This document shows positions 3,608 through 22,212 of a stretch of 64,000 nucleotides of DNA, piece by piece. The first letter of the stretch is position 1. The number at the start of each line of letters is the position of its first letter. A program made the position numbers and the translations under genes. This DNA is from Psychrobacillus psychrodurans (GTDB lineage: Bacteria > Bacillota > Bacilli > Bacillales_A > Planococcaceae). Under the pieces are notes generated by a model. That model did not search any database and was not told the DNA's origin. It saw only the letters and a program-made list of their open reading frames with translations. Location: contig FOUN01000005.1 of NCBI GenBank assembly GCA_900114885.1, positions 124,001 to 188,000 on the forward strand, in the 5' to 3' direction.

Positions 3608-4327
3608 TTACCACTCTAGCTCCACTAATTGTTTCATCGCTGATGATTTAGTTTCACCCGTTTCTTTGTCAATAAGGGATGAGTAAAGGTGTGGGATGAC
3701 AAGTTCTGCACCGTTTTCGAGACATATTTGTACAATTTCATGGACATTACTTAAGTCAATTCCACCTGTTGGCTCAATGATTTTAATACCTACTTTTGAT
3801 GCAGCCTGCGTCATTTCTGCTAATTCATCGAGATACTTTACTCCTTCGATCGGATAAAACTTAATGGACGGAATCCCCATTTCAGCAATCATCGTTGCGG
3901 CTAGTTCACAAGTAACCTTCTCGCGGTGAGCAGAACTCAATGGACCTGTGGAAATATATACTTGCCCAGGAGTGCCAGTTGGCTCAATCATCGAGTTGAT
4001 CAGAGGAACATTTTCTGTAGTTTGTTCCAATCTTCCAAGCGTATAACCCGATGCAGGGAACACTTGGTTGATGTGATCCGGTAGGGTTGCTACAGACACT
4101 TCGGCCACTTTTTTCCACATCGCTGGGTCTCCTGCACCCAACCCAACCGATACTGGGATATTATTTCCTTTGAATTCTTTTACTAATTGGATAGCAGCCT
4201 CTTCTGTCGGGAAGTTCTTGACCATCACTCCGACTAATACACGGTCTCCAGCAATTTGCACTAGTTCCTTTGCATTTTTTAAATCCTTCGCTAATACATT
4301 AAAAACAACACGATGTTTAAATGGCAT
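3608..4327 (-). CDS. dgaF: KDGP aldolase family protein (DgaF-like)
   Basis: 239 residues with the features of the DgaF/KDGP aldolase family (TIGR03581-type, related to EF_0839). These include VLVGVMVKNFPTEEAA, VSVGLGAGDPAMWKKV, a PTGTPGQVYISTGPLSS loop and IKFYPIEGVKYLDE with the likely Schiff-base lysine. In Salmonella DgaF cleaves 2-keto-3-deoxygluconate-6-phosphate to glyceraldehyde-3-phosphate and pyruvate; a related 2-keto-3-deoxy acid phosphate is expected here. The ATG has GGAG 7 bases upstream and overlaps the stop of the PLP lyase gene by one base. It is the last intact gene of the operon. Confidence 0.87.
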   Translation of the reverse strand: MPFKHRVVFNVLAKDLKNAKELVQIAGDRVLVGVMVKNFPTEEAAIQLVKEFKGNNIPVSVGLGAGDPAMWKKVAEVSVATLPDHINQVFPASGYTLGRLEQTTENVPLINSMIEPTGTPGQVYISTGPLSSAHREKVTCELAATMIAEMGIPSIKFYPIEGVKYLDELAEMTQAASKVGIKIIEPTGGIDLSNVHEIVQICLENGAELVIPHLYSSLIDKETGETKSSAMKQLVELEW

Positions 4328-5445
4328 TATCTCACTCCTCGAGCTAATATTAGTCTAATCTTCTCTGCAATTGTTTCTTCTTGTCCTTTAAGTAAAGGTC
4401 TCGGATCAACTGATAATATTCCGATATTCACATAGTGATGGCGTAAATAGATGGCTGGATTTCCTGATTCTAGAGCATGCAGTAATTCAGCTGCGTCCAT
4501 GCCTGCTTCCTTACTGTTCACCTCGATATTTGCCCGGTAAATTTCTCGTCCTGCCTCATCCTGTTTAATCATGCATGTTAAACCAGGAACCCCATTTAAA
4601 TCTTCACAAAGTGATTTCATTCTACTAATTTGAAGCTCGATATTTTCATCTTTGTGAGAATACTGTTTCAACGCCACCATCAAACCGGCAATTCCTTCTT
4701 TTCCAATCTTCATGGGACGTCCAATCCCCTTGTATTGCTTCCTACATGCTTCCATTAATACTTTTTTACCGCAAATAAACCCCGATGTTGGGCCTTCTAA
4801 TGCTTTACCACCACTGTATATAACGATGTCTGCACCCATCGCAATATACTTCTGAAAATCTTCTTCCGCAGCAGCATCCATAATAAAAGGAATTTGATAC
4901 TTTTTTGCAATCTCAATCATTTTTTCAATTGACTGCATACCTTTTTGAATAGCGTGATGAGACTTAATATACATAAGTGCGGCCGTATGTTCATTAATGG
5001 CTTCTTCGATATGTTCTGCTTCTACTTTGTTTGCTTGACCTACTTCTACTACTTTGCCTCCACCTAAACTGATCATTTGTGCAATGCTTGCTCCAAAATG
5101 AATTTGCTGTCCTTTTTGAACAATCACTTGATTTTTCAATCCATCTGAATATGGTAATCTTTCAATATGTGTCAGATTAGTACCAGCAATCACTGATGCA
5201 ACACTAATCGCTATTCCTGCTGCTGCACCACTTGTTGGACAGCCATCCTCAGCCCCTGTTACTTCAGCAATCACTGTCCCTGTTAGTTCCATAATTTCAT
5301 CTATATCTACATAATTCTGCGAGGCCTCTTTCAATGTTTGCGCAACTTCCTCACTCACAGCTGATGCTCCGAGAGCCGTCATTTTTCCACTCGCATTAAT
5401 CACCTGCTTTAAACCTAATCGTGTAAAAACATCCATCTTTTTCAC
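4327..5445 (-). CDS. dgaE: DgaE-like PLP-dependent ammonia lyase (SelA fold)
   Basis: 372 residues of the SelA-like fold-type I PLP family. The PLP lysine is Lys214 in SGGKALEGPTSGF and the ring-nitrogen Asp is Asp190 in FIMDAAAEED. DgaE of Salmonella converts D-glucosaminate-6-phosphate to 2-keto-3-deoxygluconate-6-phosphate plus ammonia, feeding DgaF, and here the two genes are adjacent and overlapping. The ATG has GAGGTG upstream. Unlike the Salmonella dga operon there is no mannose-type PTS beside it; the DUF4310-4312 set takes that position. The exact amino acid sugar substrate is an inference. Confidence 0.87.
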   Translation of the reverse strand: MKKMDVFTRLGLKQVINASGKMTALGASAVSEEVAQTLKEASQNYVDIDEIMELTGTVIAEVTGAEDGCPTSGAAAGIAISVASVIAGTNLTHIERLPYSDGLKNQVIVQKGQQIHFGASIAQMISLGGGKVVEVGQANKVEAEHIEEAINEHTAALMYIKSHHAIQKGMQSIEKMIEIAKKYQIPFIMDAAAEEDFQKYIAMGADIVIYSGGKALEGPTSGFICGKKVLMEACRKQYKGIGRPMKIGKEGIAGLMVALKQYSHKDENIELQISRMKSLCEDLNGVPGLTCMIKQDEAGREIYRANIEVNSKEAGMDAAELLHALESGNPAIYLRHHYVNIGILSVDPRPLLKGQEETIAEKIRLILARGVR

Positions 5446-5446
5446 C

Positions 5447-6106
5447 TCAGTCTAATGAAATTGGGAAAAATGCACCTAACAGCATTGCTCCTATTATTGC
5501 ACCACCTACAATTGGTTTTTTTCCAGCATAAAAAATTGCGGCTCCAACAATAGCTCCAACTCCGATTGGAATTGACGCCGATGCTGCGGAAATGATGATT
5601 AAAGGTCCTAAGAACCTTCCCGATGCATTCCCCGCCCCCATCATTACGTCTGCACCAAAAGTGGAATTAGATTGCCCCACTGTAAATTTACGAATTACTA
5701 TGACTGTATAACCAATTGCAAGTCCTAAAACTGCTCCAGTAAGTAAAGATAGTGTGAAGTTTTCAAGTGGTGCAGTGATCCCTGAAGCTAGAAGTAGAGC
5801 TGGTATTCCAATTCCTATTCCCGTTTGGATAGCTCCGCCAATATCTAAAATCCCAACAAGAGAACCCTCTAGAATACGTGCAAATAGGAAACTAGCTCCA
5901 AATGCTGCTGCAACTCCATAGCCCCCTCCTTGTAGACCTACTTCAAGCATCGCAACAATCGCCACATCATTAAATGCCCCAATTTTATATACATAGTACA
6001 TATGTGTACCAGCAAATACTCCTGAAGACAATAGGGCTACCAAAAGTGGAAATGACCAATCTGCATACCAAAAACTCTTCATATTAATTTCATTGTTCCC
6101 ACCCAT
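5447..6106 (-). CDS. DUF4310 family membrane protein
   Basis: 219 residues, Gly/Ala/Ile rich with about six hydrophobic segments. Characteristic elements are YADWSFPLLVALLSSG near the N-terminus and GLQGGGYGVAAAFGAS. It corresponds to the TIGR03580/EF_0832-type protein that occurs only in this cassette. The start is an ATG with GAGGTG upstream, directly after the stop of the DUF4311 gene, and the stop lies 1 base before dgaE. It is probably one of two membrane subunits of a transporter, but no transport has been shown for the family to my knowledge. Confidence 0.87.
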   Translation of the reverse strand: MGGNNEINMKSFWYADWSFPLLVALLSSGVFAGTHMYYVYKIGAFNDVAIVAMLEVGLQGGGYGVAAAFGASFLFARILEGSLVGILDIGGAIQTGIGIGIPALLLASGITAPLENFTLSLLTGAVLGLAIGYTVIVIRKFTVGQSNSTFGADVMMGAGNASGRFLGPLIIISAASASIPIGVGAIVGAAIFYAGKKPIVGGAIIGAMLLGAFFPISLD

Positions 6107-6892
6107 TTACTTCACCTCATATCCGATTAATTTGTGTAAATCGATCAACCATTCAGGTGCTTCTAGATTAAATCCTTGGAGAAAAGCAATATCAAATCCT
6201 CGGAAAAACCCACTTAATACAAACAGTAAAATTACAGAAACCAATAACGTCTTCGTAATCTTGTTCCAACCGCCGTCATCTACACCTTTACCTATTAATA
6301 TCCCTAAAACAACACCTGGAACTGCATTTCCCATGACCAAATGTGCTGCTCCACCGAAAATTGTTCCCCAGATTCCAGATCGTTTACCAGAATCCAAAGC
6401 TGCTAACCAGAAGATAACTGGCATTACAGGGTTGATAAGCAAGTTCGCCGCAGGTACTAATACTTTTAGTGCAATTGCTTGCAGTGATTCAGGAATTGCC
6501 GATGCTGTTGAATTTAAGAATGAAACAACGAGTATCCCGATAATAGCTCCCGTAATTGCCATCTTCTTCGGATTATGCAATGTATCCTCTGGACGTTTTC
6601 CTTTTCTCATTAATAATGCAGCTGCCCAGTTTGGTATGATTCGATGATCCACATCCTGCGTGAATGCACCAGCACCAACAGAAGATGCCCAAGCATTAAA
6701 AAAGAATCCTAAACCAAAAGAAAAATGTGACGCAGCATCCCCCGCACATGCATTTAGCTCTCCCAGAGTCCGAAATGCGCCCATACCTTGTGAACTTGGA
6801 GCATGAAACATCCGAGCTGCACCAGCACCAACACCAAAGCCAACAAATCCTCCAATGATGATTGACTTAATGATAATCACTAGTAATTCCAC
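6107..6892 (-). CDS. DUF4311 family membrane protein
   Basis: 261 residues with about six to seven membrane segments and a glycine-rich N-terminus (GGFVGFGVGAGAARMFHAP) followed by GELNACAGDAASHFSFGLGFFFN. This is typical of the TIGR03579/EF_0833 family. The start is GTG with AGGAGG 7 bases upstream. It lies between DUF4312 and DUF4310 genes in the order seen in other cassette-bearing genomes. It is probably the larger membrane subunit of the proposed uptake system. The conserved acidic, His and Cys residues in the N-terminal third are unusual for a simple channel. Confidence 0.87.
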   Translation of the reverse strand: MELLVIIIKSIIIGGFVGFGVGAGAARMFHAPSSQGMGAFRTLGELNACAGDAASHFSFGLGFFFNAWASSVGAGAFTQDVDHRIIPNWAAALLMRKGKRPEDTLHNPKKMAITGAIIGILVVSFLNSTASAIPESLQAIALKVLVPAANLLINPVMPVIFWLAALDSGKRSGIWGTIFGGAAHLVMGNAVPGVVLGILIGKGVDDGGWNKITKTLLVSVILLFVLSGFFRGFDIAFLQGFNLEAPEWLIDLHKLIGYEVK

Positions 6893-6907
6893 TATTCATT
6901 CCTCCTT

Positions 6908-7258
6908 TTATTTTGGAAAAAGACTTCCCATTGCGTGACTTTTTATATTATTTTTTTGTTCCACCTTGTTGAAATTGATTTCCTCTACATTCAAAAGAAA
7001 TAAATTTATCTTTACATCTAATACAACTCTGTATTTGCTTCTTTTTCGTGGAAAAAAGAAGAACAAAAAGCGTTCTATATACGAAAATTCTTTCGCCTCT
7101 ACAACGTCGACGTCAATAGGCTCAATCCGAATAATCATATTTCCCTTATAATCTTTCATAACTTTTTTCTGAATATTGCCTAGGGCAATGTTCAGTGCTT
7201 TTTCTTTCGAATCACCTTTGCCCTCGGTACGTACTTTTGTCTCAATAACATTTTTCAT
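6908..7258 (-). CDS. DUF4312 family protein
   Basis: 116 residues, soluble, no signal peptide. It contains EGKGDSKEKALNIALGNIQK and a middle strand-rich region (MIIRIEPIDVDVVEAKEF) that fit the DUF4312/TIGR03578 (EF_0831-type) family. A basic FFFPRKRSKYRVVLDVKI stretch could contact the membrane. Good GGGGG site before the ATG. It sits between the SFCGS protein and the two membrane proteins with short gaps, which suggests a cytoplasmic subunit of the same complex. Biochemical role unknown. Confidence 0.85.
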   Translation of the reverse strand: MKNVIETKVRTEGKGDSKEKALNIALGNIQKKVMKDYKGNMIIRIEPIDVDVVEAKEFSYIERFLFFFFPRKRSKYRVVLDVKINLFLLNVEEINFNKVEQKNNIKSHAMGSLFPK

Positions 7259-7262
7259 AAAA

Positions 7263-7622
7263 TTACCCCCTTATTTTTACTAACTCTTCTGTTAGTCTTC
7301 TTCCTAACTCTTCAGAGTCGTTAAACCCAAAACCAAGTACTCTTTTACCTTCCCTAAGAGCTGTTAACCCCTCTTCAATGGAACGCATACCGTATTGTGC
7401 TGGGTAACCATACTTTGACTGTGCTGTAATAGCTCCTGCTCCTCCACTGCCACAAAAAGAAATGCCCAAGTCTGCATTCTCTTCCTTCATCTTGTCACCT
7501 AGTTTCATATCAGCAGCCATTCCACTAATAACGATAGCAATGCCCCCTGCTGCCTCTACGCCTTTCCCAACATTTTGCCCTTTTCCCAATCGATCACCAA
7601 TCACAACAATAACTTTGCTCAT
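7263..7622 (-). CDS. Glycine-rich SFCGS family protein
   Basis: About 119 residues. The name-giving SFCGSGGAGAITAQ motif lies in the middle, preceded by a first strand (KVIVVIGDRLGKGQNVGKGVE) and GGIAIVISGMAADM. The single Cys at the head of a Gly-rich loop after a beta strand resembles, in layout only, the phosphocysteine loop of PTS EIIB proteins. It matches TIGR03577 (EF_0830 type). I prefer ATG 7622 with AGGAGG 8 bases upstream over the GTG three bases earlier. Always found with DUF4310-4312; likely a cytoplasmic partner of the membrane pair. Confidence 0.85.
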   Translation of the reverse strand: MSKVIVVIGDRLGKGQNVGKGVEAAGGIAIVISGMAADMKLGDKMKEENADLGISFCGSGGAGAITAQSKYGYPAQYGMRSIEEGLTALREGKRVLGFGFNDSEELGRRLTEELVKIRG

Positions 7623-7638
7623 CACACATTCCTCCTAT

Positions 7639-7980
7639 TTATTCTTCATTTAGTTTTGCAGCTTCAAAGTGAATTGATAAAAGATATTTTTCATCTTCAT
7701 GTAAATTACTAAGTTGCTTACAAATTTCACTTGCCATCTCAATAGACTCTGACGAGACTTCATTAAATATTTCTTTTTCCACCGACTGAATTGGTTCTTC
7801 ATTCGTTGAGCGATAAACCATTCCAGAAATATGTGAAACAAATGAAAGCCATTGAGGTACTGTCATGAGAACTTTTTTAGACTCTAAAAAATCTTTTGAA
7901 TAGGTTAAAACATCTATGCATAAATCTGGATTCCCGCTTTTACTGATTATCTCTTGCTCTTTTAAATTTTGTGTATTCAT
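7639..7980 (-). CDS. Single-PRD protein (TIGR03582/EF_0829-like)
   Basis: 113 residues that amount to a single PTS regulation domain: His50 in FVSHISGM and His104 in LSIHFEAAK are placed as the two phosphorylatable histidines of a PRD. There is no DNA- or RNA-binding domain. The start overlaps the amidohydrolase stop (ATGA), showing translational coupling. The cassette in other genomes carries such a stand-alone PRD protein. It may sense or relay phosphorylation to the operon regulator, which has its own PRDs; this role is an inference. Confidence 0.8.
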   Translation of the reverse strand: MNTQNLKEQEIISKSGNPDLCIDVLTYSKDFLESKKVLMTVPQWLSFVSHISGMVYRSTNEEPIQSVEKEIFNEVSSESIEMASEICKQLSNLHEDEKYLLSIHFEAAKLNEE

Positions 7981-9092
7981 AGTTGTACAACCTTCCCATC
8001 TTTCAGTACCATGTGTGGTTTGAGTATTTGACTCGCCTCTAGTTCTACTCCCATAGAGTCAGTTAATATCGTTCGTTGTTTTATCTTTTTAAAAATCGTG
8101 ATATCGGCTGTAGTCCCTAAAGCTAACGACCCTATATCACTTGCCCTTAGAGACCTTGCTGCTCTCGATGTAACCGTTTTTACAACTTCCATTAAGGGAA
8201 TCCCTAATTCCAACAACTTGGACATTGTATTCATCAGGCTACCAACAGGGTTTTGATAGTTTTTAAGATAGATATCAGTACTGGTTGTAAACGAATCATC
8301 GTATTTATCTCTAAACTTCATCAGAGTTTCATAGCTGAAGCTATCGGTGCCGTGTCCAATATCAAATAATATGCCTTTCTTTAAAGCCTCCATCGCTTCT
8401 GGGATCAGTAAACCTTCTGCATTTAAAATTCCATATTTTTTCCCATGAAATGCATGCGTCACAATGTCTCCTCTACGTAAAAGAGGAAAGATTTCTTCCA
8501 AATTTGGAGGTGGGTTTCCGATATGGACCATAATTGGAACGTTTATATGATCTGCTACCATACGAGCATGTTCAAGAGGTTTGATGCCTCTGTTTTTAAC
8601 AACACTCCCACTCATACGTGCTTTCAACCCCACGATGCTTGGTTCCTTTTCAAAAATCTCTTTCGCTTCTCCCAAACTCATTAAATCTTCCAGATTGGCA
8701 AGTTCAGATAAGCCGTTAGTTAAGCCTTTTCGTGATATATTAAGAAATGAAAGAACTTCCGTTCGACTCGGTTTAATTACTTTTTCCTTAAAAGTCGAGT
8801 AATCTGAATACCCGGAACTCCCAGCGTCCACTACTGTTGTAACTCCTTGCTCAATACCAACAAGATCTGCCTCAATCCCTAGTTCTGTGTGTTCTGTAAA
8901 GATATGCACATGCATATCGATGAAACCAGGAGAAACATAGCAGCCTTCAGCATCGATATATTTTACATTTGAAGAACTTATATCTTGAGGTGCTACTAAT
9001 AACCCGTCTCGTACACCAATTTCTTTCACTTCAATTGTGTCTTGTTCTGGATCTATGACAATCCCATTTTTTATGATGATTTCTTCTAGCAC
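7977..9092 (-). CDS. Amidohydrolase/deacetylase family metallohydrolase
   Basis: 371 residues of the amidohydrolase superfamily (dihydroorotase-like, TIGR03583/EF_0837 type). Metal ligands visible are HVHIF (HxH) near residue 60, a Lys in VGLKARMSG that may be carboxylated, His in IMVHIGNPP, His in DIVTHAFHG, and the Asp in LFDIGHGTDSF. The start is GTG with GGAGGTG 6 bases upstream, 14 bases after the regulator stop. It probably removes an acyl or ring amide from the imported compound before the PLP lyase acts; the substrate is not determined. Confidence 0.88.
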   Translation of the reverse strand: MLEEIIIKNGIVIDPEQDTIEVKEIGVRDGLLVAPQDISSSNVKYIDAEGCYVSPGFIDMHVHIFTEHTELGIEADLVGIEQGVTTVVDAGSSGYSDYSTFKEKVIKPSRTEVLSFLNISRKGLTNGLSELANLEDLMSLGEAKEIFEKEPSIVGLKARMSGSVVKNRGIKPLEHARMVADHINVPIMVHIGNPPPNLEEIFPLLRRGDIVTHAFHGKKYGILNAEGLLIPEAMEALKKGILFDIGHGTDSFSYETLMKFRDKYDDSFTTSTDIYLKNYQNPVGSLMNTMSKLLELGIPLMEVVKTVTSRAARSLRASDIGSLALGTTADITIFKKIKQRTILTDSMGVELEASQILKPHMVLKDGKVVQL

Positions 9093-9106
9093 AAGAACAC
9101 CTCCAG

Positions 9107-10927
9107 CTATTTTAAATAATGTAGTATTGCATAAATCTCTGCTTCGTGAACCTGTAATTCGTGTGTATCTAAAATTTTTTTTATCATTTTAATATTCTCT
9201 ACGTCATAAGTGTTGTTTATTGAATAGGAATAATTATCGTATTGTTTATCGAAATAGTAGCGATGGACCATTAAAGAAATATGCAGCATGAGTGCCTGCT
9301 TCTTTGACTCACTTATCTCATTTATAAAAGCTAACTGAACTTCTTGGTTAATCTCAAAACCTTTTAAGATAATTTCTTGGCTGATAAATTCATTATCTTT
9401 ATCACTAATTTTCTCCTCAGTACTTTCTAGCAAGTTATTAAATTGAAAATTTTTAAAACGAAGTAATTCCTTCACTTTACTTTTAATGTTTTCAATATCC
9501 CTCTTACTGGGAAGGGAATCTACGATTACTAACGGAAGAGCTGTTTCAATCGGAAAGACACTAATAATGAAATCGACCTCTTCTTGTATGCAAATTTCAT
9601 CTACTTCCATAATCGAGCAATTTTTAACGATTTCGATATCGTAAATTTCTCTTTCAACACGATTTTTAATAAGGCGTGCAACACCTTTTCCAGTAGAGCA
9701 AACATATAAAGTACGAATTTTACCTTTTTGATCAAATTTCTTTTCAAAAGAGACGATGAAATGGAGGACTATTAATGATATAAATGAATCAGGCGCTGAA
9801 ATTTTTTGAGGTGTAAGGTACAATTGGCATGCACTCTGTATGGTTGTGAATAGAGCTGAATATTCTCTCTTTAACTCTTTCGTAAAAGGATTAATCTCTG
9901 TAAAATTGATTTCACCTTTTTGGAAACGCTGAGAAAGATGAGCAAACAGATTATTAAACAATTTTGGATCCTTATGATAGTGAATACCTTGTATTTCACT
10001 CACATACTGAATTATTTCTTTTGTCACCTTTAGTATGTCGATTTGATTGAGATCATTATCACTTTCACCCGACACATAGCGGTATTCCTCTTCAAACAAA
10101 GGATACTGCATTTGTTGACACACCTTTTCCATTAGTTGAACTGTTAAATCATTGTGATCTGCTTTATTTAAAATCCGATAATCTTTCATCGTAAATCCGG
10201 CGTTCATACGAGTAATCGAGATGGTAAGTCGGAATAATATTCTCAATACCTCTGATTCATAGAGTACATGTTTGGGTGTGGAAGAAATTAACTCAGCCAT
10301 TTGCTTTTCAATAGTTTTATAAATTGGAAGTATATCCTTAATCATTTGCACCCCACCACTTAAATCATCTCGTCTTGTTACTCGACTCATAATTTTATAT
10401 ACATCATTATTCGTCAAATCAGCATGGATCAAATGTTCAAACAGCAGCCTTAGCGAAAGTTCTTCCCCTATTAACTTATAACCAGTCCCGCGCATTTTTT
10501 CTAACTCTATATTCCATGGTCGGAGCAATTCATCCATTTGTTTAATATCATTTAATGAAGTATTTCGACTTACATCTAGTTGTTCGGAAAAAGTAGCCGC
10601 AGTTACATATCCAGTGTTCACCAGCATATACAAAATCATTTTTCCTACTCTGGCCTCTTGGTTCAGATAAACATTATTTCTTTCAACTTCCGGTAAGGCA
10701 TGAATAATTGCTAATCGTTTTTCCTCGTCACAATCAAGCCAAATCCCTTTATTTGGTTGTGAAAATACTTTTCCTCCTTGCTCACAGAGCCATTTTTTCA
10801 CGTCATCCATTTCATATTTAATCATCCTCGTGCTTACATTAAACTCTTCAGATAAATCCTTCAGATATATAGGACCACTGGCTTCTAAAAGCTTTGTTAA
10901 TAACCTAAACCCTCTTATGGTTAGCAC
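9107..10927 (-). CDS. BglG/MtlR-type PRD transcription regulator
   Basis: 606 residues from the preferred GTG start (LTIRGFRLLTKLLE...), which has GAGGGTGGG upstream. A longer frame opens at TTG 10990 but has no ribosome binding site. The order is an HTH_11/Mga-like DNA-binding region (two HTHs, residues about 1-170), PRD domains in the middle, an EIIB-like domain (LYVCSTGKGVARLI with a Cys) and a C-terminal EIIA-like region. Such proteins are activators controlled by PTS phosphorylation. It is the first gene of the operon it probably controls. No matching intact PTS permease is in the window. Confidence 0.87.
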   Translation of the reverse strand: MLTIRGFRLLTKLLEASGPIYLKDLSEEFNVSTRMIKYEMDDVKKWLCEQGGKVFSQPNKGIWLDCDEEKRLAIIHALPEVERNNVYLNQEARVGKMILYMLVNTGYVTAATFSEQLDVSRNTSLNDIKQMDELLRPWNIELEKMRGTGYKLIGEELSLRLLFEHLIHADLTNNDVYKIMSRVTRRDDLSGGVQMIKDILPIYKTIEKQMAELISSTPKHVLYESEVLRILFRLTISITRMNAGFTMKDYRILNKADHNDLTVQLMEKVCQQMQYPLFEEEYRYVSGESDNDLNQIDILKVTKEIIQYVSEIQGIHYHKDPKLFNNLFAHLSQRFQKGEINFTEINPFTKELKREYSALFTTIQSACQLYLTPQKISAPDSFISLIVLHFIVSFEKKFDQKGKIRTLYVCSTGKGVARLIKNRVEREIYDIEIVKNCSIMEVDEICIQEEVDFIISVFPIETALPLVIVDSLPSKRDIENIKSKVKELLRFKNFQFNNLLESTEEKISDKDNEFISQEIILKGFEINQEVQLAFINEISESKKQALMLHISLMVHRYYFDKQYDNYSYSINNTYDVENIKMIKKILDTHELQVHEAEIYAILHYLK

Positions 10928-11053
10928 TCTTATCCCACCCTCTAGTTCTTTGGCTTTTCTACATATTCTCTGAGCGTCCGAGGTATTCAAAGGTCTGGCA
11001 CTTTAAATGACCAAAATAACCTGCGTTAAAAGTATTAGAAAATAAACAAAATT

Positions 11054-11381: not shown

Positions 11382-11420
11382 AAAAAAAGTTACTAGATTT
11401 CTATATAATCTAGTAACTTT
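11382..11420 (-). terminator. Strong rho-independent terminator
   Basis: Perfect 14-bp stem AAAGTTACTAGATT (11386-11399) / AATCTAGTAACTTT (11407-11420) with a 7-base loop, followed on the minus strand by TTTTTTT. It directly follows the GGDEF-like gene. Confidence 0.9.
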
Positions 11421-11422
11421 CA

Positions 11423-16387: not shown

Positions 16388-17308
16388 TTATTTTTTGATT
16401 AATTCTAATTCGACTGGAATAGAAGCTTCTACTTTTTCACCTTTTAGTGATTTCATTGCTGCTTCTACAGCTTTTTGACCGATTAAATCTGGTTTTTGAG
16501 CTACTGTACCAGCAAGTTTACCGTCTTCTACTGATTTTACTGCATCCCCTGTAGCATCAAAACCAACTACTAGAATATCTTTTCCAGCTGCTTCAATTGC
16601 TTCCAGTGCACCTAGAGCCATTTCATCATTATGTGCAAAAACTGCTTTTACATCTGGGTTACCTTGCAAAATATTCTCCATAACTGTTAAACCTTCTGCA
16701 CGATTAAAGTTCGCTGTTTGTTTAGCAACAACTTCTAATTTACCATTTGCAATATTGTTAAATCCTTCACCACGATCACGAGCAGCAGAAGAACCTGCAA
16801 TACCCTCAAGTTCAACGACTTGTGCACCTTCTCCAACTAACCCAAGTAAATATTCTCCAGCTAGTTCGCCACCAGCAATATTATCAGAAGCAATATGAGC
16901 TACTACATCCCCACCTTCAGAACTGCGGTCAACTGTAATAACTGGAATATCAGCAGCATTTGCAGCTTCAACTGTTGCAACTACAGCTTCTGAATCTGTT
17001 GGATTAATAAGGATTAAATCTACCCCTTGTTGAATTAGATCTTCTACATCACTTGCTTGTTTTGCCGCATTATCTTGTGCATCTACAACAGTTAAAGTTG
17101 CTCCTAGTTCTTCTGCTTTCGCTTTAGCCCCATCGCTCAATGTTACGAAAAATGGATTGTTTAAAGTAGAAACAGATAAACCAATTTTGTAGCTTCCTTC
17201 TTTATCTGTTGAGTCTGATTCCTTAGAAGAACCTGGTGCCTCTGTTGAACATGCCGCAAGAACAAGCATAATCATCATCATTAATAAAACTAAATGTACT
17301 TTTTTCAT
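16388..17308 (-). CDS. rbsB: Ribose ABC transporter substrate-binding lipoprotein
   Basis: 306 residues. Signal peptide with lipobox LAAC (Cys at 20) anchors it outside the membrane. The mature part is a type I periplasmic-binding fold: YKIGLSVSTLNNPFF, DAQDNAAKQASDVEDLI, NPTDSEAV and IPVITVDRSS, then GFDATGDAVKSVEDGKLAGTVAQKP in the hinge region. The family binds D-ribose and passes it to RbsC/RbsA. It is the last gene of the operon, as in Bacillus subtilis. AGGAG before the ATG. Confidence 0.95.
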   Translation of the reverse strand: MKKVHLVLLMMMIMLVLAACSTEAPGSSKESDSTDKEGSYKIGLSVSTLNNPFFVTLSDGAKAKAEELGATLTVVDAQDNAAKQASDVEDLIQQGVDLILINPTDSEAVVATVEAANAADIPVITVDRSSEGGDVVAHIASDNIAGGELAGEYLLGLVGEGAQVVELEGIAGSSAARDRGEGFNNIANGKLEVVAKQTANFNRAEGLTVMENILQGNPDVKAVFAHNDEMALGALEAIEAAGKDILVVGFDATGDAVKSVEDGKLAGTVAQKPDLIGQKAVEAAMKSLKGEKVEASIPVELELIKK

Positions 17309-17323
17309 GATTAATTTCTCCTT

Positions 17324-18265
17324 TTATACTGTTTTTTTTCGGTCTAATAAAACCGCTACCAATATAACTGCACCCTTCACCACCTGTTGGAAGAAAGAGG
17401 ATACCCCAATAAGATTTAGGCCATTATTCAAGACGCCAATAATGAGTGCTCCAATTAATGTACCAACAATCCAACCTCGTCCACCAGTTAAACTTGTCCC
17501 ACCTAGCACAACAGCTGCAATAGCATCCAGCTCAAACATATTTCCTGCTGTTGGTTGAGCAGAGTTTAGTCTAGAAGTTAAAATTAATGATGCTAAAGCT
17601 GCTAGGGTACCTGTAAGCGCATAAACATAAACTTTTATACGATCTACTTTAATACCAGAAAGGCGAGAAGCTTCTTCATTTCCACCAACTGCATACACTC
17701 GACGACCAAATGTTGTCTTTTTAAGAACAAAATATAATACTCCAAATGCTATAGCCATTGTAATTACTGGAACCGGGATTCCAAAGAAATAACCTTTTCC
17801 TATCAGTTGGAATGATAAAGAATCACCTAGTCCTGAAATAGGTCTACCTTCTGTATAGACTAGAGTCAAACCACGATAAATAGTCATTGTTGCAAGTGTT
17901 GCGATAAATGGAGCCACATTCCCTTTTGAAATGATAATACCGTTTATTGCACCCAAAATTGCTCCAAGGATTAACCCTAAAAACATTGCAAGCATTGGAT
18001 CCATACCACTTGCTAAAAATCCAGCGGTTACTGCTCCTGTTAGCGCTAATATTGAACCAACTGATAAGTCAATTCCGCCTGTCAAAATGACGAATGTCAT
18101 CCCAAAAGCGATTAGTGCGTTAATAGATACTTGTCGAAGTACATTTAATAAGTTGTTTAGCGTTAAAAAGTTTGGACTCATTACACTAATTATGACCACG
18201 ATTAGTAATAAACCAATTACAGGTCCGAGTTTTTGTAAAAATGATTGTGAACTAGATTTGAGCAA
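17324..18265 (-). CDS. rbsC: Ribose ABC transporter permease
   Basis: About 313 residues with eight to ten membrane segments and the RbsC/AraH signatures [22 protein letters not shown] and [19 protein letters not shown], the loop that contacts RbsA. I choose TTG 18265 because GGGAGGTG lies 6 bases upstream; the frame runs up to ATG 18286, which has no site. This start overlaps the end of rbsA by 14 bases, implying translational coupling. It forms the transmembrane channel for ribose. Confidence 0.93.
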
Positions 18266-19748
18266 CTTTGTCACCTCCCGTAGCATAATGCATAATTTTT
18301 TCTTGTGTCATTTCATCTTTTGTTAAATCTGCTGTTATTTTTCCTTCATGCATGACAAGTACTCGGTCCACCATACCAATAACCTCAGGAAGTTCAGAGG
18401 ATATCATTAATATTGCTACACCTTTTTCCGCCAAAGCATTAATAATTGAATAAATTTCTTTTTTAGCTCCAACATCGACACCTCTTGTTGGTTCATCTAG
18501 TATAAGGATGTCTGGTTCTATTCCAAGCCATTTCGCTATAACAATTTTCTGCTGATTCCCACCACTTAGTGATTTCACAAATTGGTTTGGACCAGAAGTA
18601 CGAACTCCAAGGCGTTTTACCATTGAATCGTATAATTCTTGTTCTTTTTTTGCACCTACTACACCATTTCTAGAGATCTTATCAAAGTTGGTAATGCCTA
18701 AATTATCTTTCACAGAGAAATCAACAATCAATCCTTCCGATTTTCGATCTTCCGTTACAAACCCAAAACCTAATTTTATAGCTTTTGATGGATTCTGGAT
18801 TTTCACTAACTTACCATCTAAAAAAACTTCGCCTTTATTTAGTTTTTTATATCCAAATAAAGCTTGTGCTACTTCTGTTCGTCCGGCACCCATTAAACCA
18901 GCTATTCCTAAGACTTCTCCTTTTCGTAATTCAAAGGAAACATCTTCAAAATAACCGTTTCTCGTTAAACTCTTCGCAACCAGCTTTACTTCGCCAATTT
19001 TAACAGATCGTTCTGGAAAACGATTACCAAGCTCTCGTCCAACCATCATTTGAACAATTTCATCAAATGTTGTATCCTTCACTTTTTTAACTCCAACGTA
19101 TTGTCCATCTCGTAGTATCGTAATGCGATCACAGATAGCAAAAATTTCTTCCATTCTGTGTGAAATATATACAAACGAAACTCCTTTGGCTTGCAATGCT
19201 CGAATCGTCACAAAGAGTGTTTCTATTTCCCGATCTGTCAAAGCCGCTGTGGGTTCATCCATTACAATAAGCTCTGCATTGGACGATATTGCTTTTGCAA
19301 TCTCGATAATTTGTTGTTTACCAACGGAAAGTGAACGAGCTACCATTTTTACATCAATATCGAGTCCCAAACTTAATAGGATTTCCTTTGCTTGTTTATT
19401 CATTTCTTTTGTTTTTAAAACCGGGCTTTTTCCAAACGTTCTTTCGTTTCCAAGAAATAAATTTTCTGCTACCGTTAAATCAGGAAGTATGTTCAACTCT
19501 TGATGAATAACTGCAATTCCATGTTGTTCTGCTTCTTTTGGATTTTTAAAATCTACTATTTGACCTTTTACCTTTATATCCCCAGAGTCACGTGTATAGA
19601 TACCCGTTAATATTTTCATCAAAGTAGATTTACCTGCACCATTTTCACCCATTAGTGCATGAATTTCTCCCTTTTTCACTTCAAATTCAATATTACTTAA
19701 AACTGTATTTCCATTGAATGCTTTTGAAATTCCAGTCATTTCGATCAT
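18252..19748 (-). CDS. rbsA: Ribose ABC transporter, double ATPase subunit
   Basis: 498 residues with two fused ABC domains. Domain 1: Walker [10 protein letters not shown], signature LSVGKQQ, Walker [12 protein letters not shown]. Domain 2: degenerate P-loop MGAGRTEV, signature LSGGNQQK, Walker [11 protein letters not shown]. The variant second P-loop is normal for RbsA/MglA. It powers ribose import through RbsC. The ATG has TAGGTGA upstream and the gene begins 16 bases after rbsD. Confidence 0.96.
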
Positions 19749-19764
19749 TGCTATTCACCTACCT

Positions 19765-20154
19765 TTAGAATATGACGCCTGATTGTAAAATAATATTTGC
19801 ATAAGGAGTAGCTTCACCTGTGCGTATAATAACTTTTGAATTTCGTGTCATTACTTTAAACTCTTCATGTGAAATTTCTGTAGTTTTGCCAACTTTTTCT
19901 TGAACAATTTTATGTAGCTTTGTATTAGCATCTTTTAATTCTCTAGCAATAAAGGCACACTCAACTTGTACATCATCTAACACAGCCTCAAAAATTTCTG
20001 TAAAAGAGGGTTTGCCAATTACATAAGACAAATCTATACAACGAACTCCATCTGGAATCGGTAACCCACAATCAGCTATTGTAATTTGATCTGTATGGCC
20101 AAGCTTAGCAAACTCAGCAGCAAGCTCACGGTTTAAAATACCAAGCTTCTTCAT
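19765..20154 (-). CDS. rbsD: D-ribose pyranase
   Basis: 129 residues, full length for RbsD. Conserved MKKLGILNRELAAEFAKLGHTD carries the catalytic His20, and NTKLHKIVQEKVG and the C-terminal GEATPYANIILQSGV complete the active site. It interconverts beta-pyranose and beta-furanose ribose so that RbsK receives its preferred form. The ATG overlaps the rbsK stop (ATGA) and has AAGGAG upstream. Confidence 0.96.
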   Translation of the reverse strand: MKKLGILNRELAAEFAKLGHTDQITIADCGLPIPDGVRCIDLSYVIGKPSFTEIFEAVLDDVQVECAFIARELKDANTKLHKIVQEKVGKTTEISHEEFKVMTRNSKVIIRTGEATPYANIILQSGVIF

Positions 20155-21038
20155 GATTTAGATGCTCCTTCTAATCTTTTCTTCACATCATCATGTGCTG
20201 GCATTCCGCCTTGTGCTCCAAATTTCTCTACTGATAATGAAGCTGCTGCATTTGCGTATTGTACTGCACTCTCTAAATCTAGTCCTTGTGCAAGTGCATG
20301 TGCAAGAGCTCCGTTAAATGTATCCCCCGCTCCAGTTGTATCTACTACATCCGTTTTAAATCCTTCAACAATGACATGCTTTTCACCGTCAAAATAACGA
20401 GCTCCCTCACTACCTAGAGTTACGATTAACTTGTTTGGATACTTTTCTAAAACAGCTTCCACATCTAATCCAAAAATAACTTCGCACTCTGTTTCATTTG
20501 GAGTCAAATATGCAATATAATCCATAAATTCTTTTTGAAAGCCTCCTGCAGGAGCTGGATTCAATAAGACAGGTATATTCAATTCCGAACAAAGTTTTAA
20601 TGAGTATTCAATTACTGGAATTGGAATTTCTAACTGCATCATGACAAATTTACTTTGTCGAATCGTTTCTTTCATTTTTTCAATATGTTCCAGTGTTAAT
20701 GCATGATTAGCACCAGGTACAACGATAATCCGATTGTCTCCTTCAGATAGCAATATATTGGCTATTCCAGTAGCAGTTCCATCACTTATAATGACACCAT
20801 TTGTATTTACAGCATTTTTTTCTAGATTTTCAACAAGCTCTTTGCCAAAGCTATCAGTTCCTACGCTTGCAACCATTTGTACTTTGCTACCTAATCGCGC
20901 GGCGGCTACTGCTTGATTTGCGCCTTTCCCTCCAGGTACGGTCGTAAATAATTGTCCTAATACGGTTTCACCTTGTATAGGAAAATTATCTGTTTGTACA
21001 ACTATATCCATATTTACACTACCAATAACTGTAATCAG
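20151..21038 (-). CDS. rbsK: Ribokinase (non-AUG start)
   Basis: PfkB-family kinase: GGKGANQAVAAARLG, NPAPAGGF and the catalytic DTTGAGDTFNGALAH near the end. The first ATG (21011) would drop the conserved VIGSVNMD strand, but the frame is open upstream to encode LITVIGSVNMDIV, starting at CTG 21038 or ATT just after. An AAGGAG site stands 9 bases before the CTG, which overlaps the rbsR stop (CTGA). A non-AUG start giving about 295 residues is the best reading; the exact codon is uncertain. Phosphorylates ribose to ribose-5-phosphate. Confidence 0.87.
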   Translation of the reverse strand: MITVIGSVNMDIVVQTDNFPIQGETVLGQLFTTVPGGKGANQAVAAARLGSKVQMVASVGTDSFGKELVENLEKNAVNTNGVIISDGTATGIANILLSEGDNRIIVVPGANHALTLEHIEKMKETIRQSKFVMMQLEIPIPVIEYSLKLCSELNIPVLLNPAPAGGFQKEFMDYIAYLTPNETECEVIFGLDVEAVLEKYPNKLIVTLGSEGARYFDGEKHVIVEGFKTDVVDTTGAGDTFNGALAHALAQGLDLESAVQYANAAASLSVEKFGAQGGMPAHDDVKKRLEGASKS

Positions 21039-22018
21039 CGTAACTCACTCCTTGTTGTTCCGCGCACTACTAACTCCACTGGAACTTGAATAACTTTATC
21101 ATCTAGTTCAATATCTTCGATTTTTTTTATCAACATTCTCATAGCAATCGCACCCAATTTATAAATATCCTGTGCTACTGTTGTTAATCCAGGCGTCAGC
21201 ATTCCAGCTAGGGATATACCATCAAACCCTATAATTTGTACATTTGATGGGACACTTATCCCAAGGGAATATGCCGCCTTTAATGCACCAGCCGCTGATA
21301 CATCAGTGCTTGCGAATATCCCATCTACTCCTTCAATTTCAGTTAAAAACTTCTTTGCTATTCTTTCAGAATGCTCAAAGTTAAACGGGCATTCTATTAT
21401 ATGTGATGTAATATCCTTTCCTTCTATCGCCTCTAAAAAACCAGCAAGTCGATCATCAGCCGGTCCAAGTCCAGAAGGACCACGCATGAACACTATGTTT
21501 TGACAATTTTGCTCCAATAAATAGGAGGTTCCTAGCCTAGCTCCTTCTATATTATTTGAAGAAACAGTTGGGATTGAATCATGAATCATCCTGTCAAGTG
21601 CAACTATGGGGATATCTAAATCTTCATAATGACTTGCTTGTAACTGATTAGTCGCAACAATAAATCCAGCAACATATTTTTGCTTAAGCATTTCAATATA
21701 ATTTATCTCTTTTTCAGCTTCTTCATCCGAATTACATAAAATCACTGTATATCCATAAGACAACGCGACATCTTCGACCGCTCTAGCAAGTTCAGGGAAG
21801 AATGGATTCGTTATATCCGGTACGATTAGTCCAATCAAATTGGTTTGTTTTGTACTCAATGAGCGTGCAACTAGATTCGGCTTATAGCCCAATAGTTCAA
21901 TCGCACTTTGAACCTTCTTTTTTGCTTCCTCACTGATATATCCTTTTTTATTTAAATAACGGGATACAGAAGCAACTGAAACACCAGCCTCTTTCGCCAC
22001 ATCTCTAATATTCGCCAA
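21035..22018 (-). CDS. rbsR: LacI-family ribose operon repressor
   Basis: About 327 residues from TTG 22018 (ANIRDVAKEAGVS), the usual LacI-family start, with AAAGAGTG 6 bases upstream. The frame extends to 22108 through the operator and promoter, which is not plausible. HTH at residues 3-22 and hinge helix NLVARSLSTKQ, then a periplasmic-binding-like effector domain (NLIGLIVPDITNPFF to VELVVRGTT). First gene of rbsRKDACB. It should repress its own operon via the palindrome at 22042-22059. Confidence 0.92.
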   Translation of the reverse strand: MANIRDVAKEAGVSVASVSRYLNKKGYISEEAKKKVQSAIELLGYKPNLVARSLSTKQTNLIGLIVPDITNPFFPELARAVEDVALSYGYTVILCNSDEEAEKEINYIEMLKQKYVAGFIVATNQLQASHYEDLDIPIVALDRMIHDSIPTVSSNNIEGARLGTSYLLEQNCQNIVFMRGPSGLGPADDRLAGFLEAIEGKDITSHIIECPFNFEHSERIAKKFLTEIEGVDGIFASTDVSAAGALKAAYSLGISVPSNVQIIGFDGISLAGMLTPGLTTVAQDIYKLGAIAMRMLIKKIEDIELDDKVIQVPVELVVRGTTRSELR

Positions 22019-22041
22019 TTGTTTCACTCTTTTCATCTCAT

Positions 22042-22059
22042 TGTGTAACCGGTTACACA
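22042..22059. promoter_or_regulatory. RbsR operator
   Basis: TGTGTAACCGGTTACACA is a perfect 18-bp palindrome with the central CG typical of LacI-family operators. It starts one base after the -10 box, covers the transcription start, and ends 24 bases before the rbsR TTG. It could also be read by CcpA, but the central ACCGGT and the perfect symmetry favour RbsR. Confidence 0.8.
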
Positions 22060-22060
22060 T

Positions 22061-22090
22061 AATATACCAACGAATAACTTTAGCTGTCAA
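22061..22090 (-). promoter_or_regulatory. Sigma-A promoter of the rbs operon
   Basis: On the minus strand TTGACA (22085-22090), an 18-base spacer, TATATT (22061-22066). The repressor palindrome follows directly. Confidence 0.75.
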
Positions 22091-22212
22091 TAAGAAATTA
22101 GTTGGCACTTATCACCAACTATCGGACATTCTTTAAGTGGGTAAGAGTTTATACATTATTAAAGCTACAGAATAGACTATAAGTAATAAAACATTCTAAG
22201 GAGGTTTTTAAT

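Follow-up and report, generated by a model that had tools for sequence, protein, structure and literature searches.

A window of 64,000 nucleotides from the genome of Psychrobacillus psychrodurans (GenBank accession number FOUN01000005.1, positions 124,001 to 188,000), the whole stretch of DNA analysed here, was found to carry a cassette of nine genes that belong to known families for which a known function is lacking. The cassette is very probably coupled in some way to the phosphoenolpyruvate (PEP)-dependent sugar phosphotransferase system (PTS), and a PTS-coupled importer that seems to lie outside the described transporter families is the best reading because genes for enzyme I (EI) and HPr are linked to the cassette. 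The evidence leans slightly towards an uptake operon that brings in an N-acylated 2-amino-2-deoxy sugar acid by group translocation. A further proposal, tentative and somewhat doubtful as yet, is that of a new superfamily of PTS permeases, in which a stand-alone PRD protein would be the A component, an RpiB-fold phosphocysteine carrier (the SFCGS protein) the B component and DUF4310 with DUF4311 the channel, and in which the same A/B pair would drive YhfT of Escherichia coli.

The cassette and its gene families

The nine open reading frames (ORFs) are consecutive on the minus strand at 3608-10990, with gaps of 0-15 bases and overlaps of 1 and 4 bases. In the order of transcription they are:

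9107..10990 from TTG (627 aa), or 9107..10927 from an in-frame GTG, minus strand: regulator with helix-turn-helix domains and PRDs
7977..9092, minus strand: amidohydrolase/deacetylase of the PRK09237 family (profile match; relatives 8wzy and 2ics)
7639..7980, minus strand: stand-alone single-PRD protein, TIGR03582 (profile match), the proposed A-like phosphoryl donor
7263..7625, minus strand: SFCGS protein, TIGR03577 and PF14272, with a predicted RpiB-like fold and an invariant Cys58, the proposed B-like partner
6908..7258, minus strand: DUF4312, TIGR03578 (profile match), a proposed accessory protein
6107..6892, minus strand: DUF4311, TIGR03580, predicted to be all-helical and read as a membrane protein, a proposed channel subunit
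5447..6106, minus strand: DUF4310, TIGR03579, taken for a membrane protein because its sequence is hydrophobic, the proposed second channel subunit
4327..5445, minus strand: DgaE-like ammonia lyase dependent on pyridoxal 5'-phosphate, in which R304, R335 and R349 correspond to the cluster around the docked phosphate in D-glucosaminate-6-P lyase
3608..4327, minus strand: DgaF-like KDGP aldolase, PF07071 and TIGR03581 (profile match)

A first-pass annotation, made from the sequence letters, had described a nine-gene minus-strand run of these families, and this is borne out by the ORFs and the profile cut-offs, with the regulator end at 10927 (GTG) or 10990 (TTG). Most of its family names also stood, the cassette proteins scoring above the curated cut-offs of TIGR03577, TIGR03578, TIGR03579, TIGR03580, TIGR03581, TIGR03582 and TIGR01437 and above the Pfam cut-offs of PF14272, PF14187, PF14188, PF14189 and PF07071. 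The names of the enzymes hold with limits: the amidohydrolase was recognised by PRK09237 (NF006689) and missed TIGR03583 (334 against a cut-off of 432), while the DgaE-like lyase fell below the D-glucosaminate-6-P lyase equivalog NF047797 (428.8 bits against 600) and the DgaF-like aldolase below the equivalog NF047796 (276 against 300). Between the regulator and its upstream neighbour there is a terminator-like hairpin (11385-11421), in a region whose seven hairpins are near the 4.5 expected by chance. No paper on the mechanism of the cassette was found in the library searched, which omits most subscription journals; EF_0838 or EF_0839 is merely listed in the available parts of PMC11135667 and PMC2912369.

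A five-gene module is the stable unit

When 84,980 species genomes were scanned with DUF4311, at least 501 relatives were confirmed, the best of which yielded 79 loci. Together with eight further genome stretches and four records from a plasmid collection, these loci provided 92 copies of SFCGS, of which 89 are distinct, L103, L105 and L106 being repeats of loci already in the set. The order SFCGS-DUF4312-DUF4311-DUF4310 is kept in 91 of the 92 copies (88 of the 89 distinct ones), the exception being L020, which is without a complete DUF4310, and the gene arrangement is therefore far from chance. A PRD domain lies directly upstream of SFCGS or is fused to it in 90/92 copies (87/89 distinct), the fused L045 and L101 included. 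The amidohydrolase, DgaE and DgaF genes vary in position between loci, and at L042, L045 and L097 they were not found within the fetched stretch, the module being present. Because the order is constant while these three genes move or are not found, the stable unit is the five-gene module of PRD protein, SFCGS, DUF4312, DUF4311 and DUF4310, and the enzymes are its cargo pathway. The same three loci uphold the earlier proposal of an uptake module separable from the enzymes.

SFCGS was present in 5 of 200 genomes of the window's own family and DUF4311 scored above its cut-off in 7 of 398 genomes of its phylum, the P. psychrodurans genome included in both counts; DUF4310 was detected in 12 of 398 genomes of the phylum of an Iodobacter genome. 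This patchy distribution is what a transferable catabolic operon would be expected to show. Small searches in the class of G358 (13 genomes) and the order of G472 (4 genomes) gave no further copy, and the control genomes showed a sub-cut-off SFCGS signal in Lactococcus lactis and a sub-cut-off DUF4311 signal in E. coli. L014-L016 were dropped as DUF4311 matches, being below the model cut-off, and L015 is by sequence a protein of the major facilitator superfamily type.

Some loci depart from the common layout. The five-gene module occurs twice, in tandem, in a Brevibacillus genome (L047). In Aeromonas caviae (L020:9663-10274) a single ORF is similar to both DUF4310 and DgaF, the amidohydrolase and DgaE were not found at this locus, and an internal deletion is apparent. 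A fusion of SFCGS with DUF4312 was seen in Providencia (L095), a single case of little weight.

EI and HPr genes are linked to the cassette

One EI match and three HPr matches were found in the genome of P. psychrodurans. The first-pass annotation had spoken of a cassette with no intact PTS, which does not hold for this genome, and the PRD protein and SFCGS could be A- and B-like parts. It had also proposed a genome search for EI, HPr and a kinase; EI and HPr were found, and the kinase side consists of nine PfkB matches, none of them in the window cassette. EI was detected in 46/46 genomes from the 79 loci and in 10/10 further cassette genomes, 51 distinct genomes altogether, and HPr in all 25 genomes tested, which had been picked mostly for showing linkage.

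Linkage was observed in three settings. On two near-identical Bartonella plasmids (L017 and L150) the cassette is followed by a gene for a 671-residue fusion of an HPr domain with a complete EI; the possibly incomplete gene table of the 55.7-kb plasmid from Bartonella strain HY406 lists no further gene for PTS transport. Outside Bartonella, the protein of the plasmid collection that matches the fusion best comes from Caballeronia (845 residues, 55% identity), is EIIA-HPr-EI by Pfam and adjoins ptsG; therefore an EI of the ordinary-sugar-PTS kind adjoins the Bartonella cassette. At eight Paenibacillus loci HPr and EI genes are just upstream of the regulator, and in G358 (L102), from another class of the same phylum, they come after the aldolase and a haloacid dehalogenase gene; in both groups the genomes have 3-4 EI genes each, the linked one among them. 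HPr without EI was found at three more Paenibacillus loci, at five of eight Brevibacillus loci and at one locus named Anoxybacillus sediminis. A Pfam check of seven linked proteins gave HPr for L042, L052, L059, L068 and L102 and EI for L043 and L102, and every linked HPr listed keeps the motif G-(L/I/M)-H-(A/S)-R-P-A.

Across L021-L107, EI was found in the fetched flank of 9 of 87 loci and HPr in that of 18 of 87, corresponding to 84 distinct loci. Chance would account for about 0.4 EI linkages in the 51 distinct genomes, against the nine observed; these genomes are the authors' choice and no random sample. The eight Paenibacillus cases fall into a single EI clade and may go back to one event. 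In the EI tree, where long branches and open forks were flagged, the three linked-EI groups occupy three separate places, and because of this placement EI has probably been recruited at least three times. The PTS-style control suggested at first is supported, and the case is strengthened by the linkage of the cassette to EI and HPr genes in several lineages.

The Bartonella cassette plasmid (L017/L150, about 56 kb) also has a type VI secretion cluster, and repA, parA and a RelE/ParE-type gene are present on it as inverted duplicates. The NPr-like HPr of the Aeromonas locus L020 was not taken as linkage, since it is on the opposite strand.

Candidate phosphoryl carriers and membrane proteins

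Of all parts of the cassette the PRD protein varies most (14-54% identity to the window copy), and only H50, R57, E97 and H104 are invariant in the 65 rows of the alignment (62 distinct). H50 and H104 are 54 residues apart, close to the spacing of the phosphorylated PRD histidines of MtlR, given as 230/289 and 342/399 in the part of PMC8560693 available. As a candidate A component, the PRD protein has two invariant histidines and belongs to no known EIIA family. For the window regulator, Pfam finds one PRD, and a second was seen with the PRD-protein profile alone, at 15 bits; the stretch between them, which had no Pfam match, is by eye presumably EIIB-like. An EIIA domain was not found by Pfam in this regulator or in that of Enterococcus faecalis, and the cassette regulators of Bartonella (L017) and Klebsiella (L019) have an EIIA-type domain after the PRD.

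The cysteine of SFCGS, Cys58, is kept in 69/69 rows (65 distinct). The structure model of this protein is confident (pLDDT 93, pTM 0.88), and its 13 Foldseek matches in the PDB at E<=0.001 are all sugar isomerases, 11 of the chains bearing the name RpiB or galactose-6-P isomerase and the other two belonging to the uronate ketol-isomerase 4u8f. SFCGS is thus predicted to resemble the RpiB/LacAB isomerases in fold and in its Cys loop, Cys58 being aligned with the CGTG-loop cysteine of RpiB. It differs from them in being shorter, 120 aa against 149 in E. coli RpiB, whose C-terminal part it is without, in scoring only 14.0 bits with PF02502 (cut-off 24.7), and in column 91, aligned to His99, which we take to be the second catalytic residue of E. 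coli RpiB and which is unconserved in SFCGS (R 32, Q 8, A 8, N 7, E 6, K 5, S 2, H 1 in 69 rows). The EIIB fold at first expected for SFCGS is not borne out by this model; for the first-pass annotation, the absence of such a fold was one half of what would together have told against its proposal, the other half being a dedicated kinase elsewhere in the regulon. DUF4312 has no invariant His or Cys in the alignment and is for this reason an unlikely phosphocarrier.

DUF4311 gave a moderate, all-helical model (pLDDT 79, pTM 0.60), for which a search of BFVD produced no match. Homology between DUF4310 and DUF4311 was rejected on comparison of the two.

A related pair in the yhf operon

The yhf operon of E. 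coli encodes YhfY, a PRD protein, YhfU, a small Cys protein (DUF2620; a gene of this family is listed in the part of PMC7513527 available), and YhfT, read as a membrane protein. In single hhalign comparisons, YhfY is related to the cassette PRD protein (E 8.8e-10) and YhfU to SFCGS (E 7.9e-6, with the cysteines aligned). In contrast, the profile comparison disclosed no detectable relation of YhfT to DUF4310 or DUF4311, and homology to either was rejected, YhfT scoring 1.8 bits with the DUF4311 profile. The operons differ further in their enzymes, and no DUF4312-like protein occurs among the eight E. coli yhf proteins. The order yhfZ-yhfY-yhfU-yhfT was found in 5/5 above-cut-off loci outside E. 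coli, from five genomes of the window's phylum; a sixth YhfT match, L129, was below the cut-off and was dropped. Such reuse of one PRD/Cys-protein pair with seemingly unrelated membrane proteins would be expected of a phosphorelay pair, of which it is no proof.

Catabolic enzymes and substrate

In Salmonella, uptake via the PTS DgaABCD gives D-glucosaminate-6-P, and in the lyase acting on it the phosphate was manually docked near Arg301, Arg332 and Arg346, according to the available part of PMC9529869. The cassette resembles the dgaABCDEF operon in having a DgaE-like lyase and a DgaF-like aldolase, and differs from it in that these enzymes are below the equivalog cut-offs, that no mannose-family EIIA/B/C/D was found in the cassette and that an amidohydrolase is added. 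All 78 cassette lyases long enough to compare have the three phosphate arginines as well as the aligned Lys213 and His163, and 77 of them have His162; the lysine is named Lys-217 in the available text of PMC9529869, whereas the chain sequence has a lysine at 213. As judged by eye, the three arginines are also kept in the PDB homologue 8t7j, of uncharacterised role, so the phosphate site is general to this lyase family. The phosphorylated pathway substrate assumed at the outset is probably supported by the 78/78 conservation of these arginines, and the starting compound of the pathway is probably an amino sugar acid in phosphorylated form, which may be other than glucosaminate. Outside the cell the amino sugar acid would be N-acylated, as the presence of the amidohydrolase suggests, and the enzyme would probably carry out the N-deacylation of the imported substrate.

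Further enzymes accompany the cassette in some genomes: a lactonase in Klebsiella, and an ordinary EIIC with a MupG-like hydrolase in Enterococcus L018, L055 and L099, two of these three having a PfkB kinase as well. At the E. faecalis locus (L018:15501-16243) the aldolase is broken into two ORFs that overlap, and the gene table omits it.

Proposed mechanism and alternative explanations

From the gene content, gene order, conserved residues and EI/HPr presence and linkage described above, and from the predicted fold of SFCGS, we infer the following phosphoryl transfers, transport step and substrate. PEP would phosphorylate EI and EI in turn HPr, which would pass the phosphoryl group to the two canonical histidines of the stand-alone PRD protein, giving this protein an EIIA-like role. 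The RpiB-like SFCGS, with its invariant loop cysteine, would accept the phosphoryl group or aid its hand-over in the manner of an EIIB, DUF4311 and DUF4310 would form the channel with DUF4312 as an accessory protein, and the cargo would enter phosphorylated. It would then be deacylated by the amidohydrolase, the DgaE-like lyase would remove ammonia, and the DgaF-like aldolase would split the resulting keto-deoxy acid phosphate, while the PRD regulator would sense the phosphorylation state of the same chain. Such a system would share with PTS EII permeases and MtlR-type PRD regulators the canonical PRD histidines, and with the permeases a dependence on EI and HPr, implied by linkage, and a phosphorylated pathway substrate, implied by the lyase; it would differ from the permeases in that no recognisable EIIA, EIIB or EIIC domain was found by profile scans among the window transport genes. 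PTS permeases have, to our knowledge, been treated as a small closed set of superfamilies. If correct, the proposal would add a new type, a five-gene module without known EII domains that has yet been repeatedly given its own EI and HPr; it would also provide a role for stand-alone PRD proteins and for four uncharacterised domain families, and the orphan yhf operon of E. coli K-12 would become open to testing.

A number of observations weigh against this mechanism. The presence of EI in all cassette genomes is by itself weak evidence, because EI is common in these clades, and at 66 of the 84 distinct loci no HPr or EI is linked; neither was found in the five yhf stretches of 13 kb, and the second PRD histidine, kept as His in the other five YhfY, is Asn in E. 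coli YhfY. SFCGS is predicted to fold like RpiB/LacAB isomerases and not like EIIB, the first EIIB in the fold search being EIIB-lac 3nbm at rank 38 (TM-score 0.36), and the moderate model of DUF4311 (pTM 0.60) matched no EIIC or other solved structure in the PDB (best E 1.3). An ordinary EIIC lies within the operon of the three Enterococcus loci and of L044. The carboxylate arginine of the Salmonella lyase, Arg226, is replaced by lysine in the window and in 58 of the 78 lyases, so the substrate may differ from glucosaminate. As for the PRD protein, a regulatory role is favoured by L074 and L088, where it adjoins the regulator, away from SFCGS, and by L045:7030-9240 of Vagococcus allomyrinae, where the regulator is fused to it in frame (736 aa). 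The sole fusion of a PRD domain with SFCGS, a single ORF at L101:9134-9883 (and L012), carries little weight and may be decay or an error, since a TAG codon interrupts the adjoining DUF4311 in frame where Trp is nearly invariant and a Shine-Dalgarno-like site is retained ahead of the likely former SFCGS start.

The L045 fusion and the placement at L074/L088 beside the regulator fit a cassette that is PTS-regulated and not PTS-energised, which is considered rather unlikely. In that case the PRD protein and the regulator would read PTS phosphorylation, DUF4310, DUF4311 and DUF4312 would be a secondary or other permease, and a kinase elsewhere would phosphorylate the sugar acid; SFCGS is indeed not EIIB-like, and candidate kinases exist in the nine PfkB matches of the P. 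psychrodurans genome and in the PfkB of E. faecalis L018, which has relatives in L068, L069 and L099. However, profile scans revealed no kinase in the window cassette, and no kinase family is among the 25 commonest of 65 families (57 of 64 accessory operon ORFs). It would be unusual for extra EI and HPr copies to serve a regulator that has no cognate EII, and the pairing of the PRD protein with SFCGS holds in 90 of 92 copies, also where the regulator is at the other end (for example L056, L070, L072).

Alternatively, SFCGS could be a metabolic enzyme of the RpiB type that isomerises or epimerises the sugar acid phosphate after import and uses Cys58 as its catalytic base, as its 13/13 isomerase matches and the alignment of Cys58 with the CGTG-loop cysteine would allow. 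This is judged distinctly unlikely: SFCGS stays with the transport genes and the PRD protein in L042, L045 and L097, where the catabolic enzymes were not found, the His99-aligned column holds His in only 1 of 69 rows, the protein is truncated relative to RpiB and below the PF02502 cut-off, and the DgaE/DgaF route, as established for Salmonella, requires no isomerase. It is also conceivable, though improbable, that the linked EI and HPr serve the regulator only or reflect a chance gene order. The scanned regulators have PRDs, those of Bartonella and Klebsiella with an EIIA domain in addition, and therefore the regulator alone would need HPr, so that linked HPr and EI could serve it by itself; moreover, matches to EI number 2-4 and those to HPr 5-7 in the genomes of Paenibacillus tested. 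Against this stand the nine EI linkages, far above the chance estimate for the 51 genomes, and their origin, with the Bartonella fusion, from three EI lineages. A PTS-coupled importer therefore remains the preferred reading.

Elsewhere in the window, a seemingly complete ribose operon is present on the minus strand at 16388-22108, with its genes in the order RbsR, RbsK, RbsA, RbsC, RbsB; the kinase was identified by its PfkB match, one of the nine in this genome, and the rest by eye.

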